Shown here in pieces: positions 55,652-57,413 of a DNA stretch of 64,000 nt. Below the pieces are notes generated by a model that was not told the DNA's origin, did no database searches, and saw only the letters and a program-made list of their open reading frames with translations. The stretch lies in the NCBI RefSeq assembly GCF_000686025.1, contig NZ_JMLQ01000004.1:1-64000 (forward strand), in the 5' to 3' direction. The translations under genes and the position numbers were made by a program. Position 1 is the stretch's first letter; each line of letters starts with the position of its first letter. The DNA is from Rhodococcus sp. UNC23MFCrub1.1 (GTDB lineage Bacteria > Actinomycetota > Actinomycetes > Mycobacteriales > Mycobacteriaceae).

Positions 55652-56002
55652 ATGAGGCCGATCGCGTTCGAGGACTGCTCCGTCGAGACCTGCGGAGTGA
55701 CGCGGTTCCTGAGTCTGCTGGACGGCCCGTGGGCCACGTTGATCGTGCGCGAACTGTTGGGTGGTCCCCACCGGTTCGGCGAACTGCTCACTGCACTCGA
55801 CGGAATCAGTGCCCACACGTTGACCAATCGTCTGCGCAAGTTCGAGACCCACGGGTTGCTCGTACGGACGGTGTACCCGGAGATTCCGCCGCGGGTGGTC
55901 TACGAGCTCACGCCGCTGGGGCAGGGGCTCCGGCCGGTGTTGGACGCCATGAACGAGTGGGCCATGACCGTGCCGATCGCCGGTGTTGGCGAACGCGCCT
56001 AA
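55652..56002 (+). CDS. HxlR family transcriptional regulator
   Basis: A 116-residue winged-helix regulator. The HxlR signature is clear: a Cys near the N-terminus (C-S-V-E-T-C), G-P-W-A-T-L-I-V-R-E-L, G-P-H-R-F-G-E-L-L and I-S-A-H-T-L-T-N-R-L-R. Cysteines 9 and 14 could give redox sensing as known for quinone-responsive members. ATG at 55652. The TAA stop overlaps the convergent sigma gene by 4 bases. Confidence 0.93.
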   Translation: MRPIAFEDCSVETCGVTRFLSLLDGPWATLIVRELLGGPHRFGELLTALDGISAHTLTNRLRKFETHGLLVRTVYPEIPPRVVYELTPLGQGLRPVLDAMNEWAMTVPIAGVGERA

Positions 56003-56571
56003 CCCGTGTCGGAGCCGACTTCGCCGACCCCGGCGATCAACTGTTCACGCGCACGCGCGACCCGTGAGCGGACTGTGCCGATGGGGCACCCGCACACATC
56101 AGCCGCCTCCTGGTAGGACAGCCCGAGCACCTGCGTCAGGATCAGTGCCTCGCGTCGGTCCGCGGGCAGATCGGCCAGCATCATGCGAACTTCCACCAGG
56201 TCCTCCGCGACGTTCGATCCCGTGGAGGCACTCTGCGCGGAATCCGCCACGGCCACCCAGTCGTCGCTTCCGACGAGCCGCGGGCGAGCCATCGCCGACC
56301 TGACCTGATCGACCACCACGCGTCGTGCGATGGACAGGAGCCAGGTGCGCGCGGAGGACTGCGCCGCGAACCGCGGGAGGGATGTCATCGCGCGGAGGTA
56401 CGTCTCCTGCGTGAGATCGTCCGCGGCGGACGGGGAGCTCAGATGGGCGACGAATCGCCACACGTCACGCTGTGTCTCTCGAACGAAGGACTCGAGTGCG
56501 CGGTGATCACCTCGGCCGGCGGCGAGCGCCAACTCGGTGGTGTGCGCGTCGTGCTCGGCTCGGGAACTCAC
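55999..56571 (-). CDS. sigC: ECF sigma factor, SigC-like
   Basis: A 190-residue extracytoplasmic-function sigma factor. Region 2 (about 25-95: D-V-W-R-F-V-A-H-L, D-D-L-T-Q-E-T-Y-L-R-A, A-R-T-W-L-L-S-I-A-R) and region 4 (about 130-180: L-P-A-D-R-R-E-A-L-I-L-T-Q, G-L-S-Y-Q-E-A-A-D-V-C-G-C-P-I-G-T-V-R-S-R) closely resemble M. tuberculosis SigC, which controls copper acquisition. GTG at 56571 follows GAAGG. Here the gene is divergent from a zinc-finger membrane protein and copA, and two 21-bp repeats lie before it. Orthology to SigC is my inference. Confidence 0.9.
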   Translation of the reverse strand: MSSRAEHDAHTTELALAAGRGDHRALESFVRETQRDVWRFVAHLSSPSAADDLTQETYLRAMTSLPRFAAQSSARTWLLSIARRVVVDQVRSAMARPRLVGSDDWVAVADSAQSASTGSNVAEDLVEVRMMLADLPADRREALILTQVLGLSYQEAADVCGCPIGTVRSRVARAREQLIAGVGEVGSDTG

Positions 56572-56611
56572 ACCTTCAGTATAGTTGATGACCTTCAGTG
56601 TTATTGAAAAG
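56572..56611. promoter_or_regulatory. Two tandem 21-bp operator-like repeats before the sigma gene
   Basis: Copy one, 56572-56592, is ACCTTCA, seven bases, TGATGAC. Copy two, 56591-56611, is ACCTTCA, seven bases, TGAAAAG. Both share spacing and left arm with the perfect palindrome at 52380-52400. On the sigma strand the repeat unit ACTGAAGGT occurs twice, 19 bases apart; the nearer copy includes the ribosome-binding site. Confidence 0.55.
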
Positions 56612-56618
56612 GCCCGTC

Positions 56619-56645
56619 GGGAACTTTTCCGCAGTCCCGGGCGAC
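56619..56645 (+). promoter_or_regulatory. Candidate ECF promoter of the anti-sigma/copA unit
   Basis: GGGAAC (56619-56624), 17 bases, then CGAC (56642-56645). The same arrangement, including the extended CGGGAACTTT, occurs at 59769-59795. The predicted start is only a few bases before the GTG at 56655, so translation may be leaderless. Confidence 0.6.
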
Positions 56646-56654
56646 CATTGACTC

Positions 56655-57413
56655 GTGGACTGCACACTCGCGCGAGAAGCGTTGTCGGCGCGCATCGACG
56701 GCGAACGGGAGCCCGTACCGTCCGCCCGGACCGACGAGCACCTGGAGTCCTGCGCCCGGTGCCAGAACTGGTACGCCTCCGCGACCGAGCTGACGCGCAG
56801 TCTCCGTGTCGGGTCCGCCCCACGCACCCCGGATCTGACACCGCAGATACTCGACGCCGTCGGCCTCCGTGCGCCGCGCGGTCGTCCCCGTCGCGTGGCG
56901 CGGTGGGTGTGCCGAGACCATCCGTGGAGAGCCGCCCTCGTTCTCGTGGCCATGGCGCAGATCTCGCTCGGCGTCGTACAACTCCTCGGAGTGGGACACA
57001 CCCCTGCGGCCGACCCCATGGCGATGGGTCACGAGTCGATGGCCGGACACCTGTTCAACGAGAGCACCGCGTGGAACATCGCTGTCGGGATCGGATTCCT
57101 CGTCGCCGCGTGGCGACCGGCAGCGTCGGCAGGCTTGATGCCGGTCCTGGTCGCCTTCACCGGGCTGCTGGCGGTCTTCGTGATCACCGACTCGATATCC
57201 GGCCAAGTGACCGTCCAGCGCGTCGCGTCCCACGCCATCATCGCCGTCGGTGTCGCGGTCACCGCGATGGTCCGGCGCAGCGCGAACGGGTCGACATCAC
57301 CATCACCGCAACGCTTGTCGCACAGCGACGACGAGGGCGTCATCGTTCCGGACGGCGCGCGCCAGGGGCGCCGACGCGGCCACCTGCGAGACGCCGACGA
57401 CTCCGCCGCGTGA
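56655..57413 (+). CDS. Zinc-finger anti-sigma-like membrane protein with Met/His loop
   Basis: A 252-residue protein. The N-terminus has an anti-sigma zinc-finger pattern, H29-x3-C33-x2-C36 with an additional C3. About four membrane helices follow (91-112, 137-155, 158-178, 190-206). Between the first two, residues 113-136 carry H115, M122, M124, H126, M129 and H132, a copper-binding type of loop predicted to face outside. The C-terminus is charged. It lies opposite the sigma gene and before copA, so a role as copper-sensing anti-sigma factor is proposed; this is inference. Confidence 0.8.
   Translation: MDCTLAREALSARIDGEREPVPSARTDEHLESCARCQNWYASATELTRSLRVGSAPRTPDLTPQILDAVGLRAPRGRPRRVARWVCRDHPWRAALVLVAMAQISLGVVQLLGVGHTPAADPMAMGHESMAGHLFNESTAWNIAVGIGFLVAAWRPAASAGLMPVLVAFTGLLAVFVITDSISGQVTVQRVASHAIIAVGVAVTAMVRRSANGSTSPSPQRLSHSDDEGVIVPDGARQGRRRGHLRDADDSAA

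Follow-up and report, generated by a model that had tools for sequence, protein, structure and literature searches.

A predicted membrane anti-sigma factor of a SigC-type sigma factor in Rhodococcus and its probable link with copper scarcity

In Mycobacterium tuberculosis, the sigma factor SigC supports copper acquisition and virulence, and a study of this factor lists the sensing of copper deficiency among the open questions (PMC7924339). A 2022 review, where it deals with SigC, proposes an anti-sigma-free conformational switch (PMC8999054). A locus of Rhodococcus sp. UNC23MFCrub1.1 raises the question of whether SigC has a dedicated membrane partner, and of which signal would act on it. The stretch analysed here (the window) comprises 64,000 nucleotides (nt) and is the start of contig C4 (NZ_JMLQ01000004.1) of a 4.7-Mb genome, so that window and contig coordinates are identical. 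It carries a gene for a SigC-type sigma factor and, diverging from it, a gene for a zinc-finger membrane protein. An earlier sequence-only reading had taken the second protein for a possible anti-sigma factor that frees the first under the control of copper outside the membrane. The partnership is strongly supported by the comparisons presented below and copper fits the gene content, but the direction of the signal suggested by that reading is probably reversed.

The sigma gene (55999..56571, minus strand) runs from a GTG at 56571 to a stop at 55999 and encodes 190 amino acids (aa) of the ECF36 group of extracytoplasmic function (ECF) sigma factors. The product narrowly passes the NCBIfam SigC model NF007231 (220.6 bits, cut-off 219); the model NF009187 gives it a higher score (240), yet one below its own cut-off of 290. 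Among solved structures, those closest in sequence are the two domains of M. tuberculosis SigC (2o7g and 2o8x), in agreement with the original assignment. Copper and an ECF sigma factor likewise meet in CorE from Myxococcus, whose metal specificity lies, in the account given by PMC8999054, in its own Cys-containing C-terminal extension. The window sigma differs in this respect: only 12 residues follow its region 4 (Pfam 126-178), none of them a Cys.

The divergent gene (56655..57413, plus strand, GTG start at 56655) encodes a protein of 252 aa, the predicted membrane anti-SigC factor. Residues 3-37 (56661..56765, plus strand) form a predicted cytoplasmic zinc-binding anti-sigma (ZAS) domain, matched by Pfam zf-HC2 above the gathering score (E 6.5e-7). 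The H29-x3-C33-x2-C36 motif pointed out from the sequence alone is indeed present, and a further conserved cysteine, C3, completes the ZAS ligand pattern H-x3-C-x2-C with an upstream Cys. Across the 81 rows used for family-wide Pfam and zinc-ligand counts, C3, H29, C33 and C36 are invariant and zf-HC2 matches each row (81/81). By profile, this end of the protein matches RsiW (5wuq), the anti-sigma factor of SigW in Bacillus, with E 4e-7. RsiW is a single-pass protein released by proteolysis, whereas four long helices, the number announced earlier, are predicted here at residues 90-111, 127-153, 162-182 and 187-214 (model mean predicted local distance difference test score 81.4, predicted template modelling score 0.57). 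Four helices would place both ends of the protein on the same side of the membrane. This fits the natural fusions described below, because SigC, which there comes after the last helix, has to be cytoplasmic.

The assignment of a partner is carried first by the regularity with which the two genes accompany each other. In the best 80 of 348 named relatives, the basis of all counts out of 80 given here, a SigC-like sigma gene is found at most 1.5 kb from the zinc-finger gene in 74. Of these pairs, 57 are divergent, 16 have the sigma gene first on the same strand and 1 is arranged otherwise. Six relatives have no SigC nearby (L020, L068, L072, L085, L090 and L096), and L085 begins near a contig end. 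All 75 sigma factors scanned (the 74 and that of the window) match the SigC model at E 0.001, which does not imply that each passes the curated cut-off. Among the first 13 strong-match relatives, a count that excludes the very weak relative L016, a SigC-like gene adjoins the zinc-finger gene in 12 and L007 has none at that place. The closest named relative at the locus is Rhodococcus sp. Leaf247, with a 97% identical anti-sigma protein.

The co-occurrence by which the sequence-only reading had proposed to judge the pair is also marked when whole genomes are considered. In a family sample of 251 genomes, with the zinc-finger gene called at E 1e-10 and SigC at E 1e-30, both genes occur in 67, the zinc-finger gene alone in 3, SigC alone in 2 and neither in 179 (totals 70 for the zinc-finger gene and 69 for SigC, 26 of the latter above the curated cut-off). 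The three zinc-finger-only matches score 64 bits each and contain an internal stop; both SigC-only genomes belong to one genus. The genus sample g18 (396 genomes) is called mycobacterium-like from its PPE genes and its SigC proteins, up to 90% identical to that of M. tuberculosis (the best among 36 loci compared is 90% identical to 2o7g). It gives 255 genomes with both genes, 5 with the zinc-finger gene only, 1 with SigC only and 135 with neither (totals 260 and 256), and the lone SigC-only genome is 63% complete. Copy numbers also go together, since at least two zinc-finger matches are found in 12 of the 14 genomes with at least two SigC matches, against 11 of the 242 with one. Fisher tests for co-occurrence are extreme, with kinship left uncorrected; the patchy presence of the genes within genera helps in this regard. 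A genome marked as the same species (G418) has neither gene at the thresholds used; it was noted together with 21 of the 25 genomes of the genus, and the cluster thus seems to be accessory even at species level.

In part of the family, the two proteins appear to be one. For 100 of the 121 high-scoring g18 SigC genes among the matches listed, the uninterrupted frame has the same length as the zinc-finger match of that genome, identical length being a proxy for a shared frame. In seven loci (L206-L212, local blast), the zinc-finger part lies directly upstream of SigC on one strand. These fusions agree with a sigC fusion of the M. avium complex mentioned in a review, and the window differs from the mycobacterial sigC-Rv0093c fusions in that its two genes are divergent neighbours. 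Fusions of the same sigma group with an N-terminal membrane part of 3-4 helices are also described in PMC8999054 (KLO31890.1). That description names DUF2275, whereas 0 of our 81 rows match DUF2275 at E 0.01, the family not being among the three Pfam families matched by any row at this threshold. As a separate observation, one genome (G209; L190, 6318-7580) has an anti-sigma gene fragment with a stop codon upstream of a high-scoring sigC, perhaps a decayed fusion, and holds a stop-free anti-sigma copy elsewhere.

A zinc-finger gene without a sigma gene nearby, which the sequence-only reading had counted as telling against a partnership, does occur: in g22, called corynebacterium-like from its match to a C. 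glutamicum control, this is the case in 21 of 21 genomes. SigC is however found elsewhere in the same genomes (on a different contig in 9, at least 375 kb away in 12), and no g22 genome has one gene alone among the matches listed. In two mycobacterium-like genomes of 3.3 Mb, a stop-free zinc-finger gene lies beside the ATPase and a high-scoring SigC elsewhere; the sigma adjoining the zinc-finger gene matches SigC weakly (33% in one, two overlapping pieces in the other). These two cases hint that a brake which first belonged to a paralogue may also act on a SigC encoded elsewhere, as would be expected for SigC and Rv0093c in M. tuberculosis.

The region between the two genes provides a further argument. 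A motif GGGAAC-N17-CGAC at 56619..56645 (plus strand) is the predicted SigC-dependent promoter of the zinc-finger gene and, with 9 nt between its CGAC and the GTG, probably gives a leaderless mRNA. GGAAC-N16/17-CGAC is found within 80 nt upstream of the zinc-finger gene in 75 of the 80 relatives (spacing 17 in 73), mostly ending 9-10 nt before the start, and the strict form GGGAAC precedes the gene in 72. The motif was found in 106 of 4604 control upstream regions, taken from six-frame open reading frames of at least 150 aa that are not all real genes. It is the same as the consensus published for C. glutamicum sigmaC, GGGAACT / CGACTA (PMC5483222), and recognition of such promoters by the window sigma is predicted from the motifs before its neighbouring genes. 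Since the motif upstream of the brake gene in 75/80 relatives matches this published promoter, the brake gene, and not the sigma gene, probably belongs to the SigC regulon. Indeed, only 1 of 74 sigma genes has the motif in its 150 nt upstream, and the sigma gene of the window has no strict sigmaC-type motif upstream. This is in line with a report, cited in PMC7924339, that M. tuberculosis sigC is not autoregulated. Two side observations concern the upstream regions. By eye, a direct repeat ACTGAAGGT in copies about 20 nt apart and a TATACT box precede the sigma start (56572-56610); a similar repeat, also seen by eye, is present in L017 and absent in L018 and L019. In corynebacterium-like L186 (5619-6023), a DoxX-family gene precedes the unlinked anti-sigma gene, and the 13 kb covered there contain no strict motif.

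The conservation of the pair, of the gene order and of the motif is more than chance. Because co-occurrence, natural fusions, gene order and a sigmaC-type promoter all point the same way, the anti-sigma reading is strongly supported, and it can be said with high confidence, as a prediction from comparative data, that the zinc-finger protein is the dedicated anti-sigma factor of SigC. Inhibition itself is predicted from sequence, which leaves some room for a co-activator or a non-inhibiting membrane tether, an idea that we consider most improbable.

What would this pair control? As stated earlier, a copA-like gene lies next door: a copper-type P1B ATPase (57463..59760, plus strand; TIGR01511 490 bits, cut-off 397; HMA domain) starts 49 nt behind the anti-sigma gene with no motif site in the gap and is probably co-transcribed with it. 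A second sigmaC-type motif (59769..59795, plus strand) stands 41 nt before a gene for a DsbA/thioredoxin-like protein (59837..60568, plus strand; Pfam Thioredoxin_4 and DSBA), with the same spacing in L017, and a VKOR family gene follows (60565..61152, plus strand; Pfam VKOR E 3.9e-43). On the minus strand lie a Caa3_CtaG gene of a cytochrome oxidase assembly family (61330..63351; Pfam E 1.8e-86) and, likely as first gene of the CtaG operon, a gene for a DUF5134 membrane protein (63377..63979, Pfam). A motif is found about 210 nt upstream of the latter, just beyond the window (contig C4 64190-64216, minus strand). Just past the window end, a six-gene operon (contig C4 64342-70629; L283 4343-10627), with a motif at 64306, 9 nt before the first start, consists of adjacent or overlapping genes for a periplasmic binding protein, a FecCD permease, an ATP-binding cassette (ABC) ATPase, an MFS protein, a P450 and a DIT1_PvcA isonitrile synthase. 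The synthase scores 193 bits against the PvcA equivalog, below the cut-off of 600, and the operon is a candidate copper-isonitrile metallophore operon. PvcA homologues occur in 5 of the 80 named loci. On the other side, a divergent NmrA-like reductase and HxlR-type regulator adjoin the sigma gene (54746-56002); an HxlR homologue is above threshold in only 2 of the 80 loci.

The four motif sites in 7.7 kb of the locus (56619, 59769, 64190 and 64306) were counted after the fact; across the whole genome, there are 109 motif occurrences (about 100 of them with listed positions), whereas the reversed pattern is found 22 times. In the 80 named loci, 131 of 213 strict matches precede scored genes (anti-sigma 74, PepSY 16, CtaG 13, metallophore-binding protein 10, ABC ATPase 7, other 11) and 82 are unassigned. 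Counted by loci that have the gene, the motif precedes PepSY in 15/20, CtaG in 12/20, metallophore-binding protein in 9/15 and DsbA in 2/3, and rarely or never FecCD (2/22), DUF5134 (2/18) and PvcA (0/5); for random positions, the figure is 441 of 20000. One sigmaC target of C. glutamicum, cg2556, appears in PMC5483222 as an iron-regulated membrane protein; it would be a PepSY-type gene, as in the 15/20 loci. The window itself has a PepSY_TM protein (49673-51112) with no strict motif nearby, unlike these relatives.

Mycobacterium-like genomes show a related layout, in which the zinc-finger gene stands beside a P1B ATPase and near a motif-bearing PPE operon. The motif is found 30-93 nt before the estimated PPE gene start in L301, L302, L306 and L307; in L303, the estimated start is upstream of the motif. 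Downstream of PPE, TauD is found in L301 and L306 and FcoT in L301, with the zinc-finger gene and the P1B ATPase nearby. We take this arrangement to be that of Rv0092-Rv0098. Both the fusion with SigC and a nearby P1B ATPase with a PPE-FcoT operon, by which we would recognise the Rv0093c family, are thus found in these relatives, whose genus is inferred.

The sequence-only reading saw in the ATPase, together with the loop of the anti-sigma protein, a sign that copper outside the membrane controls the release of SigC. Taken as a response to excess, copper outside would bind the loop, SigC would be released and CopA would export copper. An outer loop rich in His and Met and a copper ATPase directly behind the brake speak for it. 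The predicted regulon, in contrast, has genes for an isonitrile synthase and an importer as well as CtaG and PepSY genes, and looks like copper acquisition. In M. tuberculosis, SigC guards against copper starvation, upregulating ctpB and the nrp operon and supporting growth in low copper (PMC7924339), and ctpB rises eight-fold with a copper chelator (PMC9147137). In C. glutamicum, the sigmaC regulon is described as activated when copper is lacking or haem a insertion is disturbed (PMC7337898). Release in copper shortage is the simplest reading of these published data together with the isonitrile, CtaG and importer genes of the predicted local regulon. A copper-scarcity role of the system is thus very likely, and release by copper excess very improbable.

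How scarcity would be perceived is less certain. Residue counts were made on 54 non-redundant members, including that of the window. The external loop (residues 112-131; 56988..57047, plus strand) is rich in His and Met as a class (154 of 859 loop residues, against 20 of 1610 in the linker). Of the loop residues singled out in the sequence-only reading, H115, M122, M124, H126, M129 and H132, all are present, but only H132 is conserved (54/54), and partly M129 (23/54); M122 is kept in 3, M124 in 5 and H126 in 3, and His is outside the five commonest states at position 115. The constant positions are polar membrane residues, H132, E136, N141, D179, R189 and H193 (57048..57233, plus strand), which with Q102 in helix 1 constitute a candidate sensor site near the outer face. 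Q102, H132, E136, W140, N141, D179 and R189 are invariant in 54/54 members and H193 is present in 53/54. From the helix limits and the inferred topology, and not from distances, H132, E136, D179, R189 and H193 would lie near the outer ends of helices 2-4. Direct sensing at the membrane, with copper bound at H132/E136/D179/H193 and helped by the loop, is a speculative idea with somewhat less than an even chance of being right. The same residues bear on the proposal that the zinc finger is itself an RsrA-kind cytoplasmic thiol/redox switch and the membrane part a mere anchor. The invariance of the four zinc ligands and the adjoining DsbA/VKOR genes would suit such a switch. Seven polar membrane residues are however conserved as well as the zinc ligands, beyond the needs of an anchor, and the RsrA model TIGR03988 gives only 18.2 bits (cut-off 62.5), which makes this proposal improbable.

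In the best explanation that we infer, for binding, sign of the signal, release and promoter use alike, the zinc-finger protein would be a membrane anti-sigma factor dedicated to SigC, and its cytoplasmic C3/H29/C33/C36 domain would keep SigC at the membrane as long as copper is adequate. If less copper arrived outside the membrane, or less were delivered to cytochrome oxidase, the four helices would switch to another state and SigC would be set free. SigC would then transcribe its own brake with the copper ATPase, the DsbA/VKOR pair, the DUF5134-CtaG genes and the isonitrile-metallophore operon, and the newly made brake would shut the response down. Taken as a whole, this explanation is probable. 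By type, the system is a variant of known membrane zinc anti-sigma factors, with prior hints in print.

Several observations nevertheless weigh against it. Copper ATPases of the P1B type are exporters in most cases, so that detoxification is still a conceivable reading, and the motif directly precedes the ATPase in only 1 of the 23 named loci that have one. Three genomes of the family sample and five of the genus sample have a zinc-finger match but no SigC. The expression of the M. tuberculosis chalkophore has also been described as sigma-factor-independent, through a Rip1 pathway (PMC10449499). Lastly, the zinc-finger genes of g22 differ from that of the window not only in being unlinked: all of the four homologues aligned (of 21) lack Q102, H132, N141 and R189, three of the four lack H193, their loops contain at most one His or Met, and no strict sigmaC motif occurs in 13-14 kb around the four genes. 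Copper binding at those membrane residues cannot be the general sensing step, because the corynebacterial homologues lack them and yet the C. glutamicum regulon answers copper deprivation.

For this reason, copper binding is hypothetical even for the bulk of the family, and a signal from respiration has to be taken seriously as a rival. The brake would then respond to the state of the respiratory chain (failing cytochrome aa3, haem a, quinone or redox state), with copper shortage as just one trigger among others. For C. glutamicum sigmaC, the proposed stimulus is faulty electron transfer in aa3, and the response is also seen when haem a insertion is disturbed (PMC7337898). All four corynebacterial homologues keep H29, C33, C36, D179 and E or D at 136, but not H132, and CtaG, DsbA and VKOR genes adjoin in the window. 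The invariance of H132 and E136 in the 54 members, the composition of the loop and a predicted regulon rich in copper and metallophore genes argue otherwise, so that this alternative is less likely than not. Within the copper-scarcity explanation, a more specific proposal can be advanced only tentatively. The pair would be a new-build sensor, off when an outer-face site (H132, E136, D179, H193, fed by the variable His/Met loop) is loaded with copper and freeing SigC when it is empty; Rv0093c, of the same family, would be the long-missing SigC brake of M. tuberculosis; and SigC regulons would have recruited two isonitrile-metallophore routes that differ in their chemistry, the nrp type in mycobacteria and the PvcA type here and in some Pseudonocardiaceae.

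With a conserved partner that is sometimes fused to SigC and has a sensor-like membrane domain, the question of how copper hunger is sensed becomes directly accessible to experiment in Rhodococcus, and a testable answer is offered for relatives such as M. tuberculosis. It also suggests that SigC motifs together with the zinc-finger gene could point to new copper metallophore clusters in actinobacteria.
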